A model generated the notes under the pieces. The model worked only from the letters and a program-made list of their open reading frames with translations, made no database searches and was not told where the DNA came from. Below are positions 5,600 to 18,556 of a stretch of 40,590 nt of DNA, piece by piece (the stretch's first letter is position 1; every line of letters begins with the position of its first letter). The position numbers were made by a program, and so were the translations under genes. Source of the DNA: an uncultured Opitutia bacterium (GTDB taxonomy: Bacteria; Verrucomicrobiota; Verrucomicrobiia; Opitutales; Opitutaceae); assembly GCA_903830425.1 (NCBI GenBank), contig CAIKTR010000064.1, positions 1 through 40,590 of the forward strand, read 5' to 3'.

Positions 5600-6022
5600 C
5601 TAGCGGGCCTGGCGGACGCGGATGGTGTATTTTTTGGCCAGCGCGTTCATCGCGGTGAAACGCACGGCCTCGGTGGAGTTCTCGGCCAGGATGAGCGTCT
5701 GGAACGGCGTCTCGTCCCCGGTGGTGAAGCCCTGCTCGTCCTTGAAGACGCAGTTGACCTGGACCTGGATGCGGCGCGTCTCGCGGTTCTTCACGTTGGC
5801 GACGACCTCGATGCGCCCGTCGGGCAGCGTGCGCTCCTGCAGGCCGGTGCAGGTGACGGACACCTGGGTGGGCTGGTCGAGCAGCACGAATTTCTCGGTG
5901 TTCTCAACCGTGTATTTCGTCGTGTCCTGGGGCGTGAACGGACCGGGGGCGGTCGTGCAGCCGGCGAACAGCGCGAGCAGCAGGGCCGTCGCGGCGAGAG
6001 TGGTCAGGGACTTGGTCTTCAT
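5600..6022 (-). CDS. YcfL-like lipoprotein (DUF1425 family)
   Basis: The 140-residue precursor has a lipoprotein signal with LFAGC, giving lipidated Cys at residue 22. The mature domain has an N-terminal VSVTCTGLQERTLPDGRIEV segment, then VVANVKNRETRRIQVQVNCVF with an immunoglobulin-like beta pattern, and ends with a strand KKYTIRVRQ. This matches YcfL proteins, which in enterobacteria are encoded beside lpoB. The sequence context is the same here: LpoB-like gene, COG3014-like gene, then this one. Its function is unsettled even in model species; the beta-sandwich suggests protein-protein contacts at the outer membrane. It starts 24 bp after the gene upstream and ends 12 bp before the next one. 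The ATG is preceded by GACC. Confidence 0.85.
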   Translation of the reverse strand: MKTKSLTTLAATALLLALFAGCTTAPGPFTPQDTTKYTVENTEKFVLLDQPTQVSVTCTGLQERTLPDGRIEVVANVKNRETRRIQVQVNCVFKDEQGFTTGDETPFQTLILAENSTEAVRFTAMNALAKKYTIRVRQAR

Positions 6023-6046: not shown

Positions 6047-7294
6047 TCAGCGGTAAAGTTCGCTAAGAAATAGGATGGTGTCGCGGGGGGCGGCCTCCAC
6101 CACCAGCGTAAGTTGCCGGGTGAGACTGTCGAGCCGGCGCCCGTCTGCATCAAAAAAATCCAGCGTGGCGGGATGCTCCCCCGCCGGCAGGCTCAGGGCG
6201 GCAAAACTGAGCCGCTGCGGCAGGTTGTCCCACTGCCGGGTGTCGGCCTGCGGCGTGGTGGCGGCCGCGGCGAGCTTGCTGAGCAGGCCGATCGCGCCCA
6301 AGGCGATCGCCGTGTTCTCCGCGCCGCGGCTGTAGCTGCCGTCCGTGCGGCGGGCCCGGTCCGCCGCCACCGCTGAGCCCGCGAGCGCCAGGCTCCCCAC
6401 GGTGTCGGCCGTGCCCTTGAACACGGCCTTGTTGCCGAGGATGTGGTCCATCACCCGGCCGCCCCGGGTCATGGCCTGAAAGCTGAGGTCGTCGTACGCC
6501 GGCAGCGGCAGCGTCTGGCCGGCCACCGTGAGCGCAGCCGCATGGACGGGCGAGTCGACCGCCGCAAAGCGGAGCTGCTCGCCGTACGGGCCCGCGGCAT
6601 ACTTCCGGGGACCCTGGCCGAATTCGGCAAAGACCAGCACGTTCGCCGCCGCCGCGTACGGCGGCAGCGGGAGGCCTCCCGGGGCATTGGCCTGGGCCCG
6701 GGCCCAGGCTGCGGCGCCGTCGGCCGCCAGCCGCGCCGAGGCCAGCCCCTCGAGGTAGTCGAGCAGCACGTAGTCGCCGCGGTGCGTCGCCTCATCCGCG
6801 TCGCTGTCAATCAGCTGGCCCGAGCGGAAACACGCGCGGGCGTTGTCCGGCTGGCCCTCGCGCCAATAGAGCAGCCCGCGGTAATAGTAGGCCATCACGC
6901 GCTCGTAGGGTTCGCCGATGAAGATCTTGCCGCTCTCGGCGCCAAACAGGCTGCGGGCCTGGCGCGCCTCCGCCGAGTTCGTGATGATCCCGCCCATCCG
7001 CAGCAGGGCGTCGTCCAGCTTGTCGCGGGCCTCGTCCCAGTTGCCTGCGCGCAGCGCCGCCGCCGCGATGCGGTAGTTCCAGAGCACCCGGTCCTTCTCC
7101 GGGGCGGCCGCCCGCGCGGCGTTGCCATCCACCACCGGGTCGCCGGTGGCCGCCGCCGCCGCCGGGCCCGGCGGGGTCGCACACCCTCCGCCCGCCAGCA
7201 GCGCGGCCAGCAGGGCCAGGGAGCAACCGGCGCGACGGAGCCGGTTTCTCGGCCACGGCCCGGAGGCCGGCAATTCAGGGCGAAGGCAACGCAT
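6047..7294 (-). CDS. COG3014-like outer-membrane lipoprotein with TPR-like region
   Basis: I start this 415-residue protein at the ATG whose codon is at 7292-7294, because the reading frame continues upstream as Arg-rich non-coding-like sequence and this ATG gives a proper signal: a basic stretch, LALLAALLAGGGC, then a Thr/Pro linker. The first half of the mature protein is helical and TPR-like (WNYRIAAAALRAGNWDEARD, then YYYRGLLYWREGQPDNARAC), and the second half is beta-rich with a low-complexity Gly/Ala hydrophobic part. Architecture and neighbours match the COG3014 lipoproteins found beside lpoB and ycfL in gamma-proteobacteria. No biochemical role is known for these to my knowledge. The -3 residue of the lipobox is Gly, which is atypical, so lipidation is likely but not certain. 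It probably works at the outer membrane with the cluster partners. Confidence 0.8.
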   Translation of the reverse strand: MRCLRPELPASGPWPRNRLRRAGCSLALLAALLAGGGCATPPGPAAAAATGDPVVDGNAARAAAPEKDRVLWNYRIAAAALRAGNWDEARDKLDDALLRMGGIITNSAEARQARSLFGAESGKIFIGEPYERVMAYYYRGLLYWREGQPDNARACFRSGQLIDSDADEATHRGDYVLLDYLEGLASARLAADGAAAWARAQANAPGGLPLPPYAAAANVLVFAEFGQGPRKYAAGPYGEQLRFAAVDSPVHAAALTVAGQTLPLPAYDDLSFQAMTRGGRVMDHILGNKAVFKGTADTVGSLALAGSAVAADRARRTDGSYSRGAENTAIALGAIGLLSKLAAAATTPQADTRQWDNLPQRLSFAALSLPAGEHPATLDFFDADGRRLDSLTRQLTLVVEAAPRDTILFLSELYR

Positions 7295-7325: not shown

Positions 7326-7958
7326 TCAGCGGTAGGCCGCGTCCTCGAGCCCCTGCTTCTTGATCTCGGCGGAGTCCTCCCACACGATCTCGCTCGTGCG
7401 CGCATCAATCAGCTGGAAGCTGTAGAGCACATAGTCGCTCACGCCGGCCGAGGCCTTGGTGGTCATGCCCGCCAGCTTGCCGGTCAGGAAATAGTCGGCC
7501 CCCCGGAACTCGGTGACGTTCGGGTCGGAACTGGCCGTGACCTGGCCGTTCTGCTTCAGCGCGCGCTCCCGCTCCAGCGTCGCCATGCGGTCGCGGGCCA
7601 GGAAGCGCACCTTGCCGAGCGACTGTTTGTTGAGCTCGATCCGGAGGCGGTCGTTGAAGATGTCCTTGTTGATCGGGAACCGCGTGTCGTTGACGATCGG
7701 GTCGAGCACGATCCGCGGCGGCGTGGCGGCATGGGCGATCTCGGCGATCGCGAGGATGCTGCGGGCCATCTTGTCCGTCACGGCCACCAGGTCCTGGGAC
7801 TCGACGCCGGTGCCGGCGACGAAGCCGCGTTCATCGGGCTTCAGCTCGGTGACGGGCACGCCCGAGGGGTTCTGCACGCCTTGGGACACGCAGCCGGCCA
7901 GCAGGGCCGCCACCGCGCCGAGGCCGGCCAGGAGGGTAAAACGAATGGAGGTATTCAT
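7326..7958 (-). CDS. lpoB: LpoB-like penicillin-binding-protein activator lipoprotein
   Basis: The 210-residue precursor has a clear lipoprotein signal with LLAGC (Cys 23). After a short linker it has the LpoB domain: DKMARSILAIAEIAHAATPP, PRIVLDPIVNDTRFPINKDIF, DRLRIELNKQSLGKVRFLAR, then ADYFLTGKLAGMTTK and the final YVLYSFQLIDARTSEIVWED block. In E. coli, LpoB crosses the periplasm from the outer membrane and activates the peptidoglycan synthase PBP1B. In this organism the linker is short, so the reach or partner may differ. Length is close to the family norm (about 200). It lies second in the five-gene cluster, 28 bp after the glycine-zipper gene. The ATG has CC before it. The symbol is given by similarity and gene neighbourhood, not by experiment. 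Confidence 0.87.
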   Translation of the reverse strand: MNTSIRFTLLAGLGAVAALLAGCVSQGVQNPSGVPVTELKPDERGFVAGTGVESQDLVAVTDKMARSILAIAEIAHAATPPRIVLDPIVNDTRFPINKDIFNDRLRIELNKQSLGKVRFLARDRMATLERERALKQNGQVTASSDPNVTEFRGADYFLTGKLAGMTTKASAGVSDYVLYSFQLIDARTSEIVWEDSAEIKKQGLEDAAYR

Positions 7959-8707: not shown

Positions 8708-11700
8708 TTACTTCGCGCCCGCGGGTTCTCCGGCCGGCAAGGCGGACCGGGCCGCCTGCCGCCGGCGCCGCAGCGCCGACGTGAACCGATCCATGTAGAC
8801 GTAGATCACGGGGGTGATGTAGAGCGTCAGCAACTGCGAGACCACCAGGCCGCCCACCACCGCCAGGCCCAGCGGCCGGCGCGAATCCGCCCCGGCCCCG
8901 AGCCCGAGGGCAATCGGGATCGACCCGGCCAGCGCCGCGCAGGTCGTCATCATGATCGGCCGGAAGCGCACCAGACACGCCTCGACGATCGCCTGCTCGG
9001 CACTGAAGGCCGCGCCCTGCGCGTGCTCCTTCGCGATGGCAAAATCAATCATCATGATGGCGTTCTTCTTCACGATGCCGATCAGTAGGATCACCCCGAC
9101 ATAACCCATGATGTTCAGCTCCTCCCGGAAGGCCCAGAGCGTGACCAGCGCGCCAAAGCTGGCGGCGGGCAGGCCGGAGAGAATCGTGAGCGGGTGGATG
9201 AAGTCCTCATAGAGGATGCCCAGCACGATATAGATGACGATCACCGCCGTGAGCAGCAGCAGGCCCATCCCCCGCAGCGACGAGGCGAACGCCTGCGCCG
9301 CGCCGACAAAGCTGTAGCTGACCGTCGCCGGCAGGGTCTGGCGCGCCAGCGCCTCGATCGCCGCCGTCGCGTCGCCCAGCGCCACGCCGGGCTTGAGGTT
9401 GAACGACAGCGTCACCGCCGGCAGCTGGCCGAGGTGCGCCACCGTCAGCGGCCCGACGCCGCGGCGCAGGGTCGCCACGGTGTCGAGCGACACCAGCTTC
9501 CCGCCGCGGGACCGCAGGTAAATGAGCGAGAGCGCCGACGCGTCGCGCTGAAACTCCGGCGCCACCTCCATAATGACGTAATACTGGTTGGTCGGCGTGT
9601 AGAGGGTGGAGACCTGCCGGGTGCCGAAGGCGCTGTAGAGCGCGTCCTCCACCTGCTGCGGCGTGATGCCGAGCGTCGCCGCCCGGTCGCGCTGGATGTC
9701 CACCCGCAGCTGCGGGCTGGTGATCAGCAGGTCGGTGTTGACGTCGGTCAGCTGCGGCAGGCGGCGGAACCCCTGCTCCAGCGCCCCGGCCGCGGCGTAC
9801 AGCTCCGGCAGGTCGCTGCCCGTCAGCGTGAATTGGTAGAGCGCCTTGGTCAGCTGGCCGCCGATCCGGATCGCCGGCGGCACCTGCGGATAGGCGCGCA
9901 GCCCGGGAATGACCGCCAGCTTCTGCCGCAGGTCGCTGACGATCCACGCGATCGCGGGCCGCTCCGACCGCGGCTTCAGGCGCATGAAGAGGCGGCCCTG
10001 GTTGGACGTCGAGCTGATGCCGCCGCCCCCGCCCCCCATCGCGGACATGAAGGCGTCGACATACGGCTGCTGCGCGACAATCGCCGCCGCCGCCTGCTGG
10101 TGCCGCACCATTTCCTCAAACGAGATGTCCTGCGCCGCCTCCGTGAACACCAGCACGATGCCCGTGTCGTCCGTCGGGATGAAGCCCTGCGGCAGGACCT
10201 TCACCAGCCCGACCGTGAGCACGGCCATCAGGCCCGCCACCCCGAGCACCACCAGCCGGTGCCGGAGGCTGACCTGCAGCGTCCGCGCATACAGGCCGTG
10301 CAGCCGCGCCCACTGGCGCTCGCTCCACTCGTAGAGCCGGCCGTGCGCCGAGCCCGCCGCCGGACCGCCGTGCCCGTGCGGCTGCAGGAAGCGGCTGCAG
10401 AGCATCGGCGTCAGCGTCAGCGAAACCACGCCGGACACCAGGATCGCCGCCGTGATCGTCACCGCAAACTCGTGCAGCAGCCGGCCGAGGATCCCGCCCA
10501 TGAACATGACCGGGATGAACACCGCCACGAGCGACAGCGTCATCGAGAGGATGGTGAAGCCGATCTCCCGCGAGCCCCGGAACGCCGCCTCGCGCACCGG
10601 CAGGCCGCTTTCGATGTGCCGCACGATGTTCTCGAGCATCACGATCGCGTCGTCGACCACGAACCCGACGCACAGCGTCAGCGCCAGCAGCGACAGGTTG
10701 TCCAGCGAGTACCCGAAGAAATACATCACGATGAACGTGCCGAGCAGCGCCATCGGGATCGCCACGCTCGGGATCACCGTCGCCCAGACCGACCGCAGGA
10801 AGAGGAAGATCACCAGGACCACGAGGGAGATGGAGAGGAGCAGGGTGGTCTGCACGTCGTGCACCGAGTCGCGCACCGCCTCGGAGGCGTCGCGCAGCAC
10901 GCTCAGGCTCACCGCCTCGGGCATCTGCCGCGCGAAGAGCGGGAGCAGCGCGCGCACGCGGCCGACCACCGCGACCGTGTTCACCCCGGGCTGCTTCTGC
11001 ACCGCCAGCACGACCGCCCGCGCCAGGTCGAGCTTTCCCGCCGGGTTCCGCTCGCCATACCAGTTCGCCACCCGCGCGTCCTGCACGCTGTCGATCACCT
11101 GCGCCAGCTCGCCGAGGCGGACCGGGGCCCCGCGGCGGTACGCCACCACGATGCCGGTGAAGTCGCTCGCGCTCGCCAGCTGCCCGCTCGCCAGGATCTG
11201 CACCGTCTGGCGGTAGCCGTCCAGCAGGCCCGTCGGCTGGTTGATGTTGTGCGCGCTCAGCGCCGTGCGCACCTCGTCCAGCGTGATGCCCCGGCTGGCG
11301 AGCAGCCGGGGGTCCAGCCGCACCCGCAGCGCGTATTTCTGCGCGCCGAACACCTGCACCTGCGACACCCCGTCCACCGTCGAGATCCGCTGGGCCAGCA
11401 TCGTCTCGGCGTACTCGTCCACCACCGACAGCGGGAGGGTCGGCGAACTGAGCGCGAGGTAGAGCACCGGCTGGTCGGCGGGGTTGGTCTTGCGGAACGA
11501 GGGCGGCGCCGGCATGTCGTTCGGCAGGCGCCGCTGGACCGCCGCGATCGCGGCCTGCACGTCCTGGGCCGCGGCGTCGATGTTGCGCTCCAGCGCAAAC
11601 TGCAGCGTGATCGACGTGCTGCCGGTGCCGCTCGTCGAGGTCATCGAGTCGATGCCGGAAATCGTCGAGAACTGCTGCTCCAGCACCGTGGCGACCGCGC

Positions 11701-11881
11701 TGGCCATCGTCTCGGGGGTCGCGCCCGGCAGGCTGGCGCTGACCACGATCGTGGGAAAGTCGACCGTGGGCAGGTCGCTCACCGGCAGGAGCCGGTAGGC
11801 CATCAGGCCGAAGAGGCAGAGCGCGGCGGTGAGCAGCGTCGTCATCACCGGCCGGCGAATGCAGAGTTCCGGAAGATTCAT
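8708..11881 (-). CDS. RND-family efflux transporter, MdtB/MdtC-like
   Basis: This 1057-residue inner-membrane pump has the full RND layout of twelve helices and two large periplasmic loops. The proton-relay pair Asp-Asp lies near residue 410 in LCVGFVVDDAIVMLENI. The second half holds GIVKKNAIMMIDFA, which is the MdtB/MdtC-type version of this motif rather than the AcrB type. Residue spacing and length match the family. RND pumps export drugs, dyes, detergents or metabolites with a periplasmic adaptor and an outer-membrane channel. The adaptor gene precedes it by 11 bp, and marR precedes that, so the three form an operon. No TolC-type gene is in the operon, so the channel must come from elsewhere. 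Substrate cannot be predicted. Confidence 0.95.
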   Translation of the reverse strand: MNLPELCIRRPVMTTLLTAALCLFGLMAYRLLPVSDLPTVDFPTIVVSASLPGATPETMASAVATVLEQQFSTISGIDSMTSTSGTGSTSITLQFALERNIDAAAQDVQAAIAAVQRRLPNDMPAPPSFRKTNPADQPVLYLALSSPTLPLSVVDEYAETMLAQRISTVDGVSQVQVFGAQKYALRVRLDPRLLASRGITLDEVRTALSAHNINQPTGLLDGYRQTVQILASGQLASASDFTGIVVAYRRGAPVRLGELAQVIDSVQDARVANWYGERNPAGKLDLARAVVLAVQKQPGVNTVAVVGRVRALLPLFARQMPEAVSLSVLRDASEAVRDSVHDVQTTLLLSISLVVLVIFLFLRSVWATVIPSVAIPMALLGTFIVMYFFGYSLDNLSLLALTLCVGFVVDDAIVMLENIVRHIESGLPVREAAFRGSREIGFTILSMTLSLVAVFIPVMFMGGILGRLLHEFAVTITAAILVSGVVSLTLTPMLCSRFLQPHGHGGPAAGSAHGRLYEWSERQWARLHGLYARTLQVSLRHRLVVLGVAGLMAVLTVGLVKVLPQGFIPTDDTGIVLVFTEAAQDISFEEMVRHQQAAAAIVAQQPYVDAFMSAMGGGGGGISSTSNQGRLFMRLKPRSERPAIAWIVSDLRQKLAVIPGLRAYPQVPPAIRIGGQLTKALYQFTLTGSDLPELYAAAGALEQGFRRLPQLTDVNTDLLITSPQLRVDIQRDRAATLGITPQQVEDALYSAFGTRQVSTLYTPTNQYYVIMEVAPEFQRDASALSLIYLRSRGGKLVSLDTVATLRRGVGPLTVAHLGQLPAVTLSFNLKPGVALGDATAAIEALARQTLPATVSYSFVGAAQAFASSLRGMGLLLLTAVIVIYIVLGILYEDFIHPLTILSGLPAASFGALVTLWAFREELNIMGYVGVILLIGIVKKNAIMMIDFAIAKEHAQGAAFSAEQAIVEACLVRFRPIMMTTCAALAGSIPIALGLGAGADSRRPLGLAVVGGLVVSQLLTLYITPVIYVYMDRFTSALRRRRQAARSALPAGEPAGAK

Positions 11882-11892
11882 GGCGGGGGCCG

Positions 11893-13050
11893 TTAGGGTT
11901 TCTGGGCGGCGCCGATCGGCGCGCCGGAGAGCTGGCGCGCCTCGGCCCTGACGCCGGGCAGCAGCCGGAGCTGGCCGTCCGTCACCACCGTCTCGCCCGC
12001 CGCCAGGCCGGTGGTGATCAGCGTGTCGTCGCCCGCGGTGCGCGCGACCTGCACCGCGCGCAGCTCCACCGTCGCATCCCGCTTGAGCACGTAGATCGTC
12101 GCCCCGGTCTGGCTGTTCAACACCGCGGTCGACGGCACCACGATGGCCCCGGGGTCGACCCCCATGCGCGTGACCACGTACACAAACCGCCCGGGCCAGA
12201 ACGCGAGGTCCTGGTTCGGGAAGACCGCCTTGAGCGTGACCATGCCCGTGGTCGGGTCGATGGTGTTGTCGATGAAGACCAGCCGCCCGTCCGTCCGCGT
12301 CACCCCGCTGGTGCGCTCCGTGGCCGTCACCGTGGCGCGGCCCGCGGCCAGGGCGGCGCGGATCTCGTTCAGGGCGCTCTCCGGGACCGCGTAGGTGACC
12401 GCGACCGGCGCGAGCTGGTTGATGGTGACCAGGGTGAAGTTGCTGTCGTTGGCCTTCACCAGCGCGCCTTCATGCAGCAGCCGCTGGCCCGTCCGGCCCG
12501 CGATCGGCGCCCGGATCTCGGTGTAGCCCAGCTGCAGCTCGGCGTTGGCCACGGCCGCCTCCTTGGCCTGCGCCTGCGCCTGGGTCGTCTCCGCCTTGGT
12601 GACATACTGGATGTATTCCTCCTTCGAGACGACCGCCTGCTGGTCGAGCCGCTGGTAGCGGGCGAGCTCCGCCCGCGCCTGCTCCGCCAGCGCCCGGGCG
12701 TTGGCCAGGTCCGCCCGCGCGCTGCGCAGGCTGTTCTCGAACGGGCGGCGGTCCAACGTGAGCAGCAGGTCCCCCGCCTGCACCTCGTTGCCCTCCTCGA
12801 AATTGACCTGGGCAATCACCCCGTCGACCTGCGACTTCACGCTCACCGTGCGCTGCGCCTGCACCGTGCCGATCGCCTCGATCTGGCGCGGGACGTCCCG
12901 CTGCACCGCCACGGCGGTCTGCACCGGGACGGCCGGGGCCGCGCCGGCCCCGCGGTTCGCCGCGCGGCCGCAGCCGGCGCCGGCCAGCAGCACGGCACCC
13001 AGCAGCGGCAGGAAAAACTGGGGGGATAAGGGGCGGGAGTTAGTTTTCAT
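11893..13050 (-). CDS. RND efflux periplasmic adaptor subunit (membrane fusion protein)
   Basis: The 385-residue protein has a signal region ending LLAGAGC with a possible lipobox (Gly at -3 makes lipidation uncertain). It then shows the adaptor layout: biotinyl-lipoyl hairpin halves (QRTVSVKSQVDGVIAQVNFEEG and, after the coiled hairpin, YTEIRAPIAGRTGQRL), a coiled hairpin with repeated Ala/Gln/Glu at about residues 100-150, a beta-barrel and a membrane-proximal domain. These proteins link the RND pump to the outer-membrane channel. It overlaps the end of marR by 11 bp and ends 11 bp before the pump gene, indicating tight translational coupling. The ATG at 13050 has G at -1, one of the few exceptions to the CC-ATG pattern, which may reflect the overlap. 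Confidence 0.93.
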   Translation of the reverse strand: MKTNSRPLSPQFFLPLLGAVLLAGAGCGRAANRGAGAAPAVPVQTAVAVQRDVPRQIEAIGTVQAQRTVSVKSQVDGVIAQVNFEEGNEVQAGDLLLTLDRRPFENSLRSARADLANARALAEQARAELARYQRLDQQAVVSKEEYIQYVTKAETTQAQAQAKEAAVANAELQLGYTEIRAPIAGRTGQRLLHEGALVKANDSNFTLVTINQLAPVAVTYAVPESALNEIRAALAAGRATVTATERTSGVTRTDGRLVFIDNTIDPTTGMVTLKAVFPNQDLAFWPGRFVYVVTRMGVDPGAIVVPSTAVLNSQTGATIYVLKRDATVELRAVQVARTAGDDTLITTGLAAGETVVTDGQLRLLPGVRAEARQLSGAPIGAAQKP

Positions 13051-13513
13051 CGGGACGTTGTTTGGCGGTGGCCTCCATCCGGAGGAGATTGGTTTTGACG
13101 TGCAAGAGGTCGTGGATCAACGCGGTGCGACGCGCAGCCGAAAGGCCGCTCAGGTACGCCTCGCGCAGCGGCCCCGCCGCCGCCTCCAGCCGCAGCGTCA
13201 TGCGCTCCGCCTGCGGCGTCAAATGCAGGCGGTAGGCCCGCCCGTCCCGCGGATCGTCGCGGCGCTCGATCCAGCCGGCCTGTTCCAGCCGGTCGGCCTG
13301 CCGGCTCACCGTGATCCGCTCCATCTGCAGGCTCTCCGCGAGCTCGCTCTGCGTGCACCCCGGCTGCCGGGCCAGATGATAGAGAAAAAGCCACTGGGCG
13401 CGCGTGAGCCGCAAGCCGCGGACCCGCCGCTCAAACTCCTTCCGCGCCAGCCGGCTGATGTCGCCCAGGATGAACCCGAGGTGCCGGTCAAAGCGGGACG
13501 GACGAATCACCAT
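13040..13513 (-). CDS. MarR-family transcriptional regulator of the efflux operon
   Basis: The 157-residue winged-helix protein shows the MarR pattern: an N-terminal dimer helix (LGFILGDISRLARKEFERR), the helix-turn-helix LARQPGCTQSELAESLQMERITVSRQADRLEQAGW, and the wing ERRDDPRDGRAYRLHLT with the conserved Asp-Pro-Arg-Asp-Gly-Arg. These dimeric regulators usually repress their own operon and are released by small aromatic or drug-like ligands. It is first in the marR-adaptor-RND operon. A palindrome lies between its likely -35 and -10 boxes, so autorepression is expected. The -10 (TACTAA) is 8 bp from the ATG, so the mRNA may be leaderless or nearly so. The ligand is unknown. Confidence 0.93.
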   Translation of the reverse strand: MVIRPSRFDRHLGFILGDISRLARKEFERRVRGLRLTRAQWLFLYHLARQPGCTQSELAESLQMERITVSRQADRLEQAGWIERRDDPRDGRAYRLHLTPQAERMTLRLEAAAGPLREAYLSGLSAARRTALIHDLLHVKTNLLRMEATAKQRPDEN

Positions 13514-13694: not shown

Positions 13695-14345
13695 ATGCGC
13701 CGCCTCGCCTCCTGCTCCCTGTTTTTCCTGCTGACCTGCCCCTCCGGCCTCCTCGCCGCCGAGCCGGCCGAGGTGTCCGCGCTCCGCGCCAAGGCGGAAA
13801 AGGGCAACAGCCTCGCCCAGTACAATCTCGGCCTCGCCTACTCCCAGGGCCAGCTGGTGACCGTCGATCTGCCGGAGGCGTTTGCGTGGCTAACCTTGGC
13901 GGCGGAAAACGGCTCGACCGGCAACGCCCTCGACCGCGTGCTCGGCGGCCTCACCGATGAGCAGCTCGCCGAGGGCCGCCGCCGGCTCGCGGCCCACCGC
14001 ACCGTCCTGTCCGGCCGCCCCACCGGGGCCGCCGCCGGCCGCCCCCCCGCCCGCCGACCCGCCAACCGCGGTTTCAGCCTCACCCCCATGTCCGACGCTC
14101 CTTCCGCCGAGCCCGACTCCTCCCCCGCCGCCCCCGTGACCCGGCCCCCGGAATCCACCGGCCTCCTCCTCCCGGCCCGGCCGGAGGCGCTCGGCCCGGG
14201 CCCGTTGCCCGAGGCCCGGGGCGAGCTGACCCAACTCCGCGACGAACTTGCCCAGGCCCAGGAACGCCTCCGGGAGCAGGCCGCAACCATCGCCAAACTT
14301 CAGGCCGAACTCGCCCGTCAGGCCCCCGCGCCGCCCCGCCCGTAA
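13695..14345 (+). CDS. secreted Sel1/TPR-like protein with short C-terminal coiled coil (trio gene A)
   Basis: The 216-residue protein begins at the ATG at 13695 with a signal peptide (MRRLASCSLFFLLTCPSGLL, cleaved near AAEP). Residues about 22-95 hold a Sel1/TPR-like unit: KAEKGNSLAQYNLGLAYSQG, then PEAFAWLTLAAENGS. An Arg/Pro/Ala-rich linker follows, and the last about 45 residues form a coiled coil (GELTQLRDELAQAQERLRE, ending ELARQAPAPPRP). The N-terminal region is closely matched by the next gene, which suggests duplication. It lies divergent from marR with a 181-bp gap that includes the marR promoter. Sel1-type repeats mediate protein contacts; a periplasmic scaffold role is likely but unproven. 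Start choice is based on the signal peptide; upstream in-frame codons are not protein-like. Confidence 0.78.
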   Translation: MRRLASCSLFFLLTCPSGLLAAEPAEVSALRAKAEKGNSLAQYNLGLAYSQGQLVTVDLPEAFAWLTLAAENGSTGNALDRVLGGLTDEQLAEGRRRLAAHRTVLSGRPTGAAAGRPPARRPANRGFSLTPMSDAPSAEPDSSPAAPVTRPPESTGLLLPARPEALGPGPLPEARGELTQLRDELAQAQERLREQAATIAKLQAELARQAPAPPRP

Positions 14346-14415
14346 CGCGCCCGCCCCGGACCGGCCGGGATTCGCGTGTTGAGTAGACAGCCAGAACCCC
14401 TACTGATTCCTCGCC

Positions 14416-17400
14416 ATGTTTTCGACCGCCCGCCTCGCCCAGCTGCTGCTGCTGCTCGTCTCGGCCTGCCGGCTCCTGGCCGCCGAGCCCGCGGAAATCG
14501 CCTCACTCCGGTCCAAGGCCGAAAGAGGCAACGCCGTCGCGCAATATAACCTGGGCCTCGCCTACGCCTCCGGACAGCTGCTGCCCGCGGACCTGCCCGA
14601 GGCTTTGGCCTGGCTCACCCTCGCCGCGGAAAACGGCTCCACCGGCAAGGCGCTCAACACCGTCCTGGGCAGCCTCACCGACGCCCAGCTCGCCGAGGGC
14701 CGGAAGCGGCTCGACACCTACCGGGCCACCCTCGCCGCCCAGGCCAAGACCCTGCCGGCCGCGCGCGGCACCTCCGCCAAATCCGGCACCCGCATCTTCA
14801 GCCTCAATTCGGTCGCCGCCCCCTCTCCTCCCCCGCCACCCGCCCCGATAACGCGGCCCCCGGAGCCCACCTCCCCCGCCCCAGCCGCCGCGCCCGGCAC
14901 GGCGGAACTGGCCTCCCTCCAGAACGACCGCCGCCAGCTCAGCGAGGAACTCGCGGCCTCCTGGCAGGAGAACACCCAGCTGAAGAAGGAGCTGGAACGC
15001 ACCCAGACCTTGCTCGCCGAGCAGCCGGCCCGGCTCGCCCAGGCCGCCGACGCCAAGGCCGGCGCCCCGCTCGCCGCCGCCCAGGCGCAGCTGGCCGAGC
15101 TCCAGGCCAAGTGGACCGCCGCCGAGACGGCGCGGACGACGCTCGCCGCGGAAAAATCCGCGGCCGACCAGGCCGTCGCCAACCTCACCGCCGAAAAGGC
15201 GACACTCGCGGGCCAGCTCGCCCAGGCTCGCTCCGCTCCGGCTGACACCCAGAAGGAAGCGCTGGCGACCAAAACGGTCGCGCTGCAGGCGGAGCTCGCG
15301 GCCGCGCGCCAGGCCGCGGCTGACGCCCGGCAACAGCTGGCCGCCCGCGACGCCCAAACCCAGGCCGCCGCCACCACCCTCGACGCCGCCCGCCAGCAAG
15401 CCGCCGCCACCGCGGCCGACAAAACCAAGGCGGAATCCGCCCTCGCCGCCGCCACCGCCGTCGCGGAATCCGCCCGGACCGAGTTGGCCGCCCAGCTCGC
15501 CGCCGCCACCGCGGCCGCCGGTCAATCCGCCGCGCAACTGGGGGAACTCCAAGCGGAGCACACCCGCCTGAAGGCGCAGCTCGCCGCCACGGAATCGGCC
15601 CGCGCCGCGCTCGCCGCGGAGCAAGCCGCCGCCAACCGCACGCGCACCCAGCTCGCCGCCGAGAAGGAACAGCTCGCCGCGCAGCTGGCCCAAGCGGGCG
15701 CCGCGGCCGGCAGCGAGACGCAACGCCGGGCCGAGCAGGCCGCCCAGGAATCCAGCGCGCAGGTCGCGACCCTCAAGACGCAGGTACAAACGCTCGAGGC
15801 CGCCCGCACCGCGGCCCAGGCCGACCTCGCCAAGGAGCGGCAGACCCACGCCGCCACCCAGAAGGACCTCACCCAGGCCCGCGCCCGTCTGGCCGAGCTG
15901 ACGACCGCCGCCCGCCAGGCCACCGAGGCGGCCCAGGCCCGCGCCACGGCCCGCGCCACGGCCAGCGCCACGGCCAGCGCCGCCGAGCTGGCCCAGATCA
16001 CCAGCCAACGCGACGCGGCCGAGTCGGCCCGGACCCAGGCCGCGGCCGCCGCCGCGGGCTCCGCCCGGGAAATCGCCGCGCTCACCCAGCAGCTCGTCGC
16101 CGCCACCGCCGCCGGCACGGACGCCCAAACCCGCGCCACCCAAGCCGCGGACCAGCTCCGCGCCCTCCAATCCGAGACGGCCGCACTCCAGGCCCAGCTG
16201 GCCGCGAAGACCGCTGCCGCCGCGGCAGCCGATCAAGCCTCCGCCCGGCTCAAGGAACTTCAGGCCGAACTCACCCGTCTGAAGACCCAGCTCGCCGCCG
16301 GCGAATCCGACCACACCGCCCTGGCCGCGAAAAATTCCTCCGACCAGCAGGCTCTCGCGACCCAGCTCGCCCAGGCCGTCGACCAGGCCCGCGAGCGACA
16401 GGCCGCCTTGGCCGCCCTGCAGGCCGAACTCGCGGCCGCCCGCGCGGCCATGGACGACTCCCGGCAAAAACTCGCCGCCAGCGAATCCACCCGCAGCGAG
16501 CTGGCCAATCAGCTCGCCCCGCTGCGGGTCCAGTTGCAGGCGGCCCAGGCCGCCGGCGAATCTTCCCGCGGCCAGGCCGAGGCCGGCTTGGCCGCCCAGG
16601 CCGACCTCACCAAGGAGCGGCAGGCCCACGCGGCCACCCAGGCGGACCTCACCCAGGCCCGCGCCCGTCTGGCCGAGCTGACGGCCGCCACCCCCGCCGC
16701 CGCCAAGTCCGCCGAGGAACTCGCCGCCGCCCAGCAGGAACTCCGGACCACCCGGGAGCAGCTGTCCGCGGCCGCCGCCGCGGCCACGACCCAGGCCGCC
16801 GCACTCGCCGCCGCGCAGCAGGAAGCCGCCCGCGCCCGGACCGACCTCGCCGCCACCGCCGGGCCCCTGGCCCAGCTCGCGGCGCAGCAGGCGCAGGCCG
16901 CCGAACTCCGGACCAAGCTGGAGACCGTCGAGGCGGCCCGCGCCGCCCTGGCCACCCAGGCCAGCGCCGCCGCCGACCAGCTCACCCGCCAGGGCGCCCA
17001 GGTGCAGTCGCTCGAGGGCGAGCGGACCGCCCTGCAGCAGCAGCTCAAGACCGCCCAAGCCGCCCCCGTCGCCGCCGACCCGGCCAAGGCCGAAGCCGAG
17101 GACAAGCTCGCGCAGGCGCTGCGCAGCTACACCGTGCTGCAGGGCGAGAACGAGGCGCTCAAGACCGGGGCCGAAAAAATCGCCGCCGAGAAATCTGCGC
17201 TGGAGGGCCAGCTCGCCGCCCGCAAGGCCGCCGCCGAGGCCCTCCAGGCCCAGGTGGCCGGCGCGGCCGCGCAGGCCGCCCAGGCCAGCTCCGACCGCGA
17301 GCAGCTCCGCCAGAGCCAGGCCCAGGCTGCCGACGCCGGGCGCCGGGCGACCGAGGCCCAGAATTCCAACCGGGTGCTCGCCGAGGAAAACACCCGCCTG

Positions 17401-17754
17401 AAGGCGACCATCGCCAGTGTCTCCCAGACCGTCGGCCGCATCACCGCCGCCCCGGCCCCCGCCGCCAACCCGCCCGCCCCCGCCCGCCTCATGGGCACCC
17501 CCCCGACCGGACCCAACTCTCCCACCCGCCCCGGCACCCCCCAGGCCCTCGCGGCCACCACCCCGCCCGCGCCTCCCGCGCCGCCCCCGCCCGTCACGCG
17601 CACCCACGTCGTCGCCCCGGGTGACACCCTCGGAAAAATCTCGCGCCAGTATTACGGCACGCAAAACCGCTGGCCCGATATCCTCGCGGCCAACCGCAGC
17701 GTCCTTCGCGACGAGCGCAGCCTCGTGGTCGGGCGCACGCTCCGGATCCCGTAG
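14416..17754 (+). CDS. giant secreted Sel1 + Ala-rich coiled coil + LysM protein (trio gene B)
   Basis: This 1112-residue protein has, in order: signal peptide (ends near LLAAEPAE), a Sel1/TPR-like unit at about residues 25-95 that is nearly the same as in gene A, a Pro/Ala linker, about 850 residues of Ala/Gln/Glu/Lys heptad-rich coiled coil, a LRSYTVLQGENEAL block near residue 900, a Pro-rich linker, and a final LysM domain (THVVAPGDTLGKISRQYYGT and a closing LVVGRTLRIP). LysM binds peptidoglycan glycan chains, so the protein is probably tethered to the wall with a very long rod in the periplasm. The coiled coil holds an internal 90-bp repeat and a 12-bp tandem repeat. It lies 70 bp after gene A and 70 bp before gene C. 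Ala-rich segments this long are unusual and may be expression-sensitive. Function unknown. Confidence 0.85.
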   Translation: MFSTARLAQLLLLLVSACRLLAAEPAEIASLRSKAERGNAVAQYNLGLAYASGQLLPADLPEALAWLTLAAENGSTGKALNTVLGSLTDAQLAEGRKRLDTYRATLAAQAKTLPAARGTSAKSGTRIFSLNSVAAPSPPPPPAPITRPPEPTSPAPAAAPGTAELASLQNDRRQLSEELAASWQENTQLKKELERTQTLLAEQPARLAQAADAKAGAPLAAAQAQLAELQAKWTAAETARTTLAAEKSAADQAVANLTAEKATLAGQLAQARSAPADTQKEALATKTVALQAELAAARQAAADARQQLAARDAQTQAAATTLDAARQQAAATAADKTKAESALAAATAVAESARTELAAQLAAATAAAGQSAAQLGELQAEHTRLKAQLAATESARAALAAEQAAANRTRTQLAAEKEQLAAQLAQAGAAAGSETQRRAEQAAQESSAQVATLKTQVQTLEAARTAAQADLAKERQTHAATQKDLTQARARLAELTTAARQATEAAQARATARATASATASAAELAQITSQRDAAESARTQAAAAAAGSAREIAALTQQLVAATAAGTDAQTRATQAADQLRALQSETAALQAQLAAKTAAAAAADQASARLKELQAELTRLKTQLAAGESDHTALAAKNSSDQQALATQLAQAVDQARERQAALAALQAELAAARAAMDDSRQKLAASESTRSELANQLAPLRVQLQAAQAAGESSRGQAEAGLAAQADLTKERQAHAATQADLTQARARLAELTAATPAAAKSAEELAAAQQELRTTREQLSAAAAAATTQAAALAAAQQEAARARTDLAATAGPLAQLAAQQAQAAELRTKLETVEAARAALATQASAAADQLTRQGAQVQSLEGERTALQQQLKTAQAAPVAADPAKAEAEDKLAQALRSYTVLQGENEALKTGAEKIAAEKSALEGQLAARKAAAEALQAQVAGAAAQAAQASSDREQLRQSQAQAADAGRRATEAQNSNRVLAEENTRLKATIASVSQTVGRITAAPAPAANPPAPARLMGTPPTGPNSPTRPGTPQALAATTPPAPPAPPPPVTRTHVVAPGDTLGKISRQYYGTQNRWPDILAANRSVLRDERSLVVGRTLRIP
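15814..15903 (+). repeat. 90-bp direct repeat, copy 1 (in gene B)
   Basis: This segment recurs at 16594-16683, exactly 780 bp (260 codons) downstream, with about five base differences. Both copies encode QADL(A/T)KERQ(T/A)HAATQ(K/A)DL followed by TQARARLAELT. The frame is kept. It indicates duplication or gene conversion within the coiled coil. Confidence 0.85.
15937..15984 (+). repeat. 12-bp tandem repeat, four units (in gene B)
   Basis: Four 12-bp units of the form GCC-CGC/AGC-GCC-ACG/GCC follow each other, coding ARATARATASATASAA. Units one and two are identical, and units three and four differ from them by an Arg-to-Ser codon change and a final base change. In-frame slippage would lengthen or shorten the coil by four residues. 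It lies between the two 90-bp copies. Confidence 0.8.
16594..16683 (+). repeat. 90-bp direct repeat, copy 2 (in gene B)
   Basis: Second copy of the segment at 15814-15903, in the same frame, with about five base differences. Recombination between the copies would delete 260 codons without shifting the frame, so coil length could vary among strains. Confidence 0.85.
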
Positions 17755-17824
17755 GAGCGCGGCCCGCCGCCGGCCGCCGGCGCGAAAGATTGCCTCGGGC
17801 CCAATTCCTTCCATCCTGCCGCCC

Positions 17825-18556
17825 ATGAGCTCCCATCCGCTCCGTGTCGCCCTCGCCCTCGTGTCCCTGCTTGCCGGTGCCGCCCGGGCCCACGGCCAGG
17901 CGGCCGCGCCCAAAGCCGCGCCCGTCGCCCCGCCCCAACCGGCCGCTCTCCTCACTCCCGCCGCCACCGTAACTCCTGCGGCCACCTTGACTCCTGCAGC
18001 CACCGTGGCTCCCGCCGCTCCCGCTCCCGTGGCCGCGCCTGCCGCTCCTGCCGAGTCCCAGGACAGCGCCGAGGCCAAGCTCGCGATCGTGCTGCGCAGC
18101 TACACCCTGCTGCAGGCGGAAAACGAGCAGCTCCAGGCCGCCCAGGAAAAACTGCTCGCGGAAAAATCCGCCCTCGCGGCCGAGCTCGCCGTGGCCAAGG
18201 ACGCCCTGCCGCTCGCCGCGCAGGCCGTCGGGCTGCACGACCAGCTGCGCCGGACCCAGGACCAGCTCGCCGCGCTTTCCCTCGAGAACAACCAGCTCCG
18301 GACCCGTCTCACCCTCGGCACCTCCTCCTCGGGGTCCGTCATGCCGTCCCCGACTTACCCCGGCAGCGCCCCTGCCGCCGCCCCGGAGGCCCCCGCCGCG
18401 CGCACGCATGTCATCGTGGCCGGCGACACCCTCACCAAGATTTCCGTCCGGTACTACGGCACGCCCAACCGCTGGTCGGAAATTCTCGCGGCCAACCGCG
18501 AGGGGCTGAACGACGAGAAGAGCCTCGTCGTCGGCCGCACCCTGCGGATTCCCTGA
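17825..18556 (+). CDS. secreted LysM protein with short coiled coil (trio gene C)
   Basis: The 243-residue protein begins at the ATG at 17825 with a signal peptide (VALALVSLLAGAARAHG), then an Ala/Pro/Thr linker with a repeated TPAAT unit. A block at about residues 80-110 (EAKLAIVLRSYTLLQAENEQ) matches the LRSYTVLQGENE block of gene B. A short coiled coil and a Pro/Ala linker follow, then a C-terminal LysM domain (THVIVAGDTLTKISVRYYGT, ending LVVGRTLRIP) that is nearly the same as in gene B. It probably binds peptidoglycan in the periplasm. It is the third gene of the trio, 70 bp after gene B, and ends 3 bp from the convergent phosphatase. The parts it shares with B but not with A make B look like a join of A and C. 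Confidence 0.85.
   Translation: MSSHPLRVALALVSLLAGAARAHGQAAAPKAAPVAPPQPAALLTPAATVTPAATLTPAATVAPAAPAPVAAPAAPAESQDSAEAKLAIVLRSYTLLQAENEQLQAAQEKLLAEKSALAAELAVAKDALPLAAQAVGLHDQLRRTQDQLAALSLENNQLRTRLTLGTSSSGSVMPSPTYPGSAPAAAPEAPAARTHVIVAGDTLTKISVRYYGTPNRWSEILAANREGLNDEKSLVVGRTLRIP
17951..18007 (+). repeat. 18-bp tandem repeat, three units (in gene C)
   Basis: Three successive units code LTPAATV, TPAATL and TPAATV, followed by a degenerate APAA. The DNA units share most bases (ACT-CC/T-G-CC...-ACC-G/T-T-...). They form the flexible linker between signal peptide and coil. The differences at third positions suggest age or selection, not recent slippage. Confidence 0.75.

Follow-up and report, generated by a model that had tools for sequence, protein, structure and literature searches.

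Three genes, A, B and C, follow one another on the plus strand of a 40,590-nucleotide stretch of DNA that we call the window (contig CAIKTR010000064.1 of assembly GCA_903830425.1, from an uncultured Opitutia bacterium of the family Opitutaceae, Verrucomicrobiota). All three are genuine genes. The middle one, B, encodes a giant protein in which a long coiled coil separates an N-terminal Sel1 domain from a C-terminal LysM domain. Judged from the sequences compared, B is a widespread core gene across Opitutaceae; C-type partners are common, and an upstream A is seen in the window's genus only. Our preferred reading, to which we assign a probability of about 0.5, is that B is an exported, peptidoglycan-bound and length-tolerant periplasmic scaffold that lies along the wall or is folded back. 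The observations behind it are the domains, a heptad coil with kept register, purifying selection, conservation and the lipobox pattern of the partner genes.

B is a giant coiled-coil protein under selection

Hydrophobic residues in the coil of the window's B recur with a 3.5-residue period, the peak reaching 4.12 against 2.45 for the best of 200 shuffles. A period of 3.45-3.5 is found in all 15 B proteins compared, the window's included (the shuffle control was applied to the window's B only). AlphaFold2 (AF2) models a near-continuous helix over residues 163-1005, with small breaks, and the Sel1 (26-112) and LysM (1062-1111) ends score well. For the coil, three pairs of close relatives give ratios of non-synonymous to synonymous substitution rates (dN/dS) of 0.23, 0.29 and 0.38, which indicates that it is selected as protein. 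There is some internal likeness, with 31 of 40 residues identical at an offset of 260; no regular long repeat was seen within the coil. A Foldseek search with B returned no match at E ≤ 0.001, the best being Sel1 proteins, Kbp and unrelated coils, and SMC-type matches of B were taken as coil noise.

The ends of B are recognizably related to its neighbours. Pfam finds Sel1 as a single matched stretch apiece in A (E 3.9e-9, 37.2 bits) and B (E 1.1e-7, 32.6 bits; cut-off 30.7), and LysM in B (E 1.2e-7, 32.0 bits) and C (E 1.4e-8, 34.9 bits; cut-off 20.9). A and B are 57% identical across 130 residues (E 3e-42) and 69% identical in the 85-residue Sel1 domain, while C aligns with B at 40% identity over 237 gapped columns (E 1e-33), rising to 70% over the final 56 residues. 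The AF2 model of C (mean predicted local distance difference test score, pLDDT, 73.2) consists of the signal, a disordered linker, a single helix at 80-165 and LysM. A preliminary description of this DNA, made from its letters, had read A as signal, Sel1 and short coil, C as signal, LRSYT block, short coil and LysM, and B as the Sel1 of A, a long Ala-rich coil and the LRSYT block and LysM of C. Pfam, the alignments and the 3.5-residue period agree with this layout, the signals being assigned by eye. Its further statement that the shared ends are almost the same went too far: they are clearly homologous, at only the 69% (A and B, Sel1) and 70% (B and C, tail) identity given above.

The A/B and B/C gaps measure 70 bases each in the window. 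The scan for sigma-70-type promoters was negative for both strands, and the plus strand has none of the eight terminator-like sites.

B is spread across the family, and A is limited to one genus

Among the matches listed for a sample of 387 genomes from the phylum (a listing that could miss weaker cases elsewhere), Sel1-model matches of at least 95 bits occur in 23 of the 37 genomes of the window's family and in none of the 350 others. The next match below that set scores 65.8 bits, and no listed match outside the family exceeds 60.9 bits. In 22 of the 23 genomes the same contig also carries a LysM-model match in an equally long open frame; the exception is G400, where the match sits close to a contig end and a stop interrupts the frame.

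We then compared gene order at the best 80 of 321 loci, using for gene counts and lipobox counts a purpose-made gene caller that can miss starts. Sel1 and LysM stand in one gene at 63 of these loci; 11 others have a Sel1 gene without LysM (several are cut by a contig end or split) and six have no called Sel1 gene. The names on the 80 loci are Opitutaceae and its genera, Opitutae or Opitutia, or the phylum only. The window's own genome is 95% complete, in 254 contigs. The preliminary description had raised the case that no three-gene order would be conserved elsewhere; the order A-B-C is in fact present in the window and in nine of 11 loci assigned by eye to same-genus relatives (G001-G011), with locus L119 lacking A and L127 ending before C. 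Four loci have a 4-base overlap of A and B, which supports joint translation. At the remaining 52 B loci a Sel1-only gene is never found upstream of B; two loci have one downstream, and in 16 the gene immediately after B is a C-type.

This distribution does not fit the earlier suggestion that B is constructed like a fusion of A and C: B would be the family-wide core, the upstream A is genus-limited and C-types elsewhere carry the marks of lipoproteins. A recent fusion of A and C as the origin of B was rejected on comparing identity within and between genomes. A and B are 59.3% identical in the same genome (n=10) and 59.2% in different genomes (n=110); for B and C the figures are 69.6% (n=11) and 67.8% (n=121). 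Same-genome and different-genome identities are thus equal, which gives no hint of concerted evolution or of a recent fusion. One row of the LysM tree, G035_B, holds a C sequence (identical to G035_C1), and the genus identity figures are unaffected. In the Sel1 tree the ten A rows group in a single clade (91/92), nested within a clade of 17 rows that also includes genus B rows; with 12 inner branches open, a midpoint root, and the G008 A and several B rows of the family left out, the tree only suggests that A derived from a B-type Sel1 domain.

The lipobox follows the same boundary. Outside the genus 21 of 22 C-type genes (17 loci) encode a lipobox followed by C-x-[YFL]-[VI]-H, compared with none of ten inside it, counted after extending frames upstream. 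By this pattern, C-type partners outside the window's genus are lipoproteins. The window's genus thus differs twofold from the rest, in a C without lipid anchor and in the presence of A; that one change compensates for the other would be a guess. As for B, a lipoprotein assignment was considered and rejected: the window's B has a lipobox-like VSAC, and the pattern is present in only 3 of the 63 other B proteins.

Coil length drifts while heptad register is kept

By one fixed rule the coils of the 15 B proteins are 502-1732 residues long, or 75-257 nm if straight. Whole B proteins range from 496 to 2002 residues (median 1200) among the 63 B genes, save one form of 167 residues. Of 173 coil insertions or deletions (indels) of 5-80 residues, 52 are multiples of seven against 24.7 expected (p 8e-8; 22 B pairs at at least 60% identity, the events not being fully independent). 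The 167-residue B and the 496-residue B of locus L184 were omitted from this test, and the twin of the latter from G026 was retained. Multiples of 4, 5, 6, 8, 9 and 11 show no enrichment. When simulated pairs with random indels were passed through the same aligner, 15.0% of 432 events were multiples of seven, so the excess is not made by the aligner. Selection on these coils therefore seems to favour heptad phase, not length. Such a pattern points to a rope that self-associates; it speaks against both a ruler and a radial spacer.

A length-tolerant scaffold at the cell wall

As to export, wall binding, association of B with C, orientation and role, we infer the following. B, whose sole hydrophobic stretch is the N-terminal signal (by eye), would be exported by Sec and be soluble in the periplasm. 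The predicted LysM at its C-terminus would hold peptidoglycan, and its N-terminal Sel1 domain may dock a partner protein. The Ala-rich coil would act as a self-associating rope along the wall or folded back, not as a measured rod across the periplasm. C probably joins B via the common coil block; where C-types are lipoproteins, the wall would be linked through a B-C coil to a membrane (probably the outer membrane). In the window's genus, A may be a second docking subunit, probably descended from the Sel1 domain of B-type proteins.

A bolder form of this scaffold, which we think fairly improbable, would have B polymerize into long periplasmic filaments that circle the cell along its wall; such a network would be an exported equivalent of intermediate filaments. 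Lipoprotein C-types or, in the genus, the Sel1-only A would supply the cross-links, and length could drift freely as only heptad register would have to match.

Several observations weigh against the scaffold. AF2 confidence for the whole of B is modest (mean pLDDT 65.6, predicted template modelling score 0.29). The nearest LysM in the PDB is that of Kbp, a potassium-binding protein, which makes wall binding less than certain. A C-type gene directly follows B in just 26 of 63 loci, so B does not always require C, or at any rate not as an adjacent gene. A loose pattern for the LRSYT-type block is matched in only 16 of 63 B proteins and 23 of 38 LysM-only genes; so patchy a block is not a universal docking motif. 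The stricter set of indels, from pairs at at least 70% identity, is small, with 7 of 26 multiples of seven, and the lengths of large indels among the closest relatives (e.g. 101, 108 and 209 residues) are not divisible by seven. Finally, in the 167-residue B of G008 (L083:7204-7707, the same locus as L117) Sel1 is joined straight to LysM; the coil may be dispensable, the contig or assembly may be faulty, or this may be a natural deletion.

Alternative explanations

B could instead regulate a peptidoglycan synthase: its Sel1 domain would act like the tetratricopeptide repeats (TPRs) of CpoB and tune an LpoB-activated synthase, with LysM and coil serving only to localise it. We regard this as possible but unlikely. 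The lpoB and ycfL genes lie divergent to the locus, and 39 of 63 loci carry a ycfL, lpoB or TPR-type gene, always on the opposite strand to B. A Sel1-bearing B (Sel1 match E 2e-16 or better; split in two in G027) is accompanied by LpoB in 14 of 57 genomes surveyed, and the two lie within 10 kb in ten of the 14; they do not in G007, G017 and G018, and in G014 lpoB is beside a Sel1-less LysM/coil pair. According to excerpts of PMC4458516, CpoB binds PBP1B, although E. coli LpoB makes no direct contact with CpoB in the same excerpts. Within the genus only 3 of 12 members have an LpoB match although all 12 keep B (coil-less in G008). Neither UB2H (PF14814; E ≤ 0.001) nor TolA_bind_tri (PF16331; E 0.001) matched in the window's genome, where a divergent UB2H could be missed and completeness is 95%. 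The genome that gave no UB2H match carries an lpoB-like gene.

CpoB (YbgF), which acts with TolA/Pal and PBP1B-LpoB in E. coli, resembles the proteins described here in being periplasmic and in having a coil and a helical-repeat domain, and here too an lpoB-like gene is near. CpoB has TPRs, and it is not known to have a LysM or a giant coil. Membership of the CpoB/YbgF family was rejected: the match of A to TolA_bind_tri (E 0.011, 16.2 bits) is below the cut-off of 30.1, and no TPR family matched A, B or C in Pfam at E 1.

A surface or secreted fibre, anchored in the wall by LysM and with Sel1 as its outer tip, strikes us as decidedly improbable. Length plasticity is usual for stalks and counts in its favour. 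DipA, a protein composed of signal, Sel1 and coil, is surface-exposed according to excerpts of PMC3694160. Against this, neither Pfam nor NCBIfam assigns a surface-export or adhesive domain to any of the three proteins.

The preliminary description had proposed a rod or spacer in the periplasm. A straight rod or spacer across the periplasm, fixing the distance between outer membrane and wall, would agree with a LysM at one end of a near-continuous helix. The periplasm is roughly 15-30 nm wide, so coils of 75-257 nm are too long for such a radial spacer; their length varies more than threefold among the 15 relatives, and B has no consistent lipobox (3 of 63). We consider this form of the proposal very unlikely, and a rod along the wall or a folded bundle is the form that is possible. 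That GC-rich, low-complexity DNA has been misread as protein is scarcely conceivable: a 1191-residue antisense open reading frame (14503-18078, minus strand) does overlie B in GC-rich, Ala-rich coding DNA, but the codon model favours the plus-strand genes over it, it looks like a shadow of that coding DNA, and purifying selection, kept heptad register and conserved ends and gene order contradict an artefact.

Relation to known systems

Two known proteins share the LysM domain. FimV-type scaffolds, like B, are long envelope proteins with both LysM and coiled coil. FimV spans the inner membrane and has a cytoplasmic part, whereas none is seen in B. Kbp (YgaU) has the nearest solved LysM by sequence profile and is among the top fold matches; it carries BON and LysM, without Sel1 and coil. 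Two others share Sel1. Excerpts of PMC9926476 describe PodJ of Caulobacter as having coiled coils and a Sel1 part that may touch peptidoglycan; there PodJ has a transmembrane segment and its Sel1 part is periplasmic, whereas B seems wholly exported and carries LysM. The PodJ order of coil, transmembrane segment and periplasmic Sel1 is not found in B, where Sel1 precedes the coil. DipA of Francisella, with a Sec signal, Sel1-like repeats and a short coil, has the layout of A; at 353 residues it has no room for a giant coil, and the excerpts of PMC3694160 mention no LysM.

In the open-access literature on Sel1, LysM and coiled-coil envelope proteins only DipA looked close among the matches listed. 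No description of this protein family was found in the open-access literature searched, which does not prove its absence from print. The B family thus appears to be family-restricted and, as far as searched, undescribed, a variant of wall-bound coiled-coil scaffolds. Phage and defence origins were rejected: the PHROGs matches of B and C are confined to the LysM end and those of A to the Sel1 part, and the sole PADLOC match, a weak one, is of the coil of B to LmuB (E 4.5e-5).

Features of the window and neighbouring genes

Table 1. The A-B-C genes, their parts and neighbouring genes in the window.
Feature	Position	Strand	Description and basis
Gene A	13695-14345	+	216 residues: signal peptide (by eye), Sel1 domain, Pro/Ala-rich linker, short C-terminal coil
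Sel1 domain of A	13761..14009	+	Sel1 model A1, 135.5 bits; Pfam Sel1
Short coil of A, residues ~173-210	14211..14324	+	TolA_bind_tri match below cut-off
Gene B	14416-17754	+	1112 residues: signal peptide (by eye), Sel1, disordered linker, ~840-residue Ala-rich heptad coil, linker, LysM
Sel1 domain of B	14485..14736	+	Model A1, 138.6 bits; AF2 pLDDT 84-96 in blocks, residues 31-110
Coil of B, residues 163-1005	14902..17430	+	3.5-residue periodicity; near-continuous AF2 helix; dN/dS in relatives
LRSYT coil block of B, common to C	17083..17250	+	B/C sequence comparison
LysM tail of B	17587..17751	+	LysM model A2, 109.3 bits; Pfam LysM
Gene C	17825-18556	+	243 residues: signal peptide (by eye), Ala/Pro-rich linker, 86-residue helix with LRSYT block, LysM
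Coil helix of C, residues 80-165	18062..18319	+	AF2, pLDDT blocks 86-96 up to residue 160
LysM tail of C	18389..18553	+	Model A2, 106.8 bits
ycfL-like lipoprotein gene (DUF1425; ycfL name presumed)	5600..6022	-	Conserved neighbour
TPR protein between the lpoB and ycfL genes	6047..7135	-	Presumably COG3014-like
lpoB-like gene (peptidoglycan-synthase activator family)	7326..7958	-	Pfam LpoB, 69.6 bits; conserved neighbour, outside the cassette
RND (resistance-nodulation-division) pump, membrane-fusion protein, MarR regulator	8708-13513	-	Between the lpoB genes and the cassette

The RND/MarR block occupies this position in a subset of relatives only. A glycerol kinase gene (identified by eye) lies at most four genes upstream of B in 36 of 63 loci. 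At the spot between window positions 13513 and 13695 it is present in eight of 11 genus relatives (in one as a 104-residue piece) and is not in the window.

A second, related giant family, with multiple Sel1 repeats, coil and LysM, was seen at the right ends of G000:C36 (L107) and G000:C116 (L108) and at L102-L106 and L110-L115; many of these loci have tatC- and prfB-like genes (by eye) upstream of it. In the window's genome this family is apparently split across two contig ends. L109:4887-5771 encodes a LysM protein of ~300 residues with a lipobox-like start and an N-terminal half that looks like helical repeats, and LysM-model matches in frames of ~250-340 residues recur across the phylum.

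Implications for the Opitutaceae envelope

If the scaffold reading is true, the Opitutaceae envelope would be built in part from a giant exported coil whose length exceeds the width of the periplasm, together with a partner that is either lipid-anchored or soluble. The family also offers a natural length series, with coils up to ~1700 residues between conserved ends and one coil-less form, in which to ask what periplasmic coils do. B also gives envelope biologists a defined gene to test, one that often lies near an lpoB/ycfL operon, within a phylum that has been little studied.

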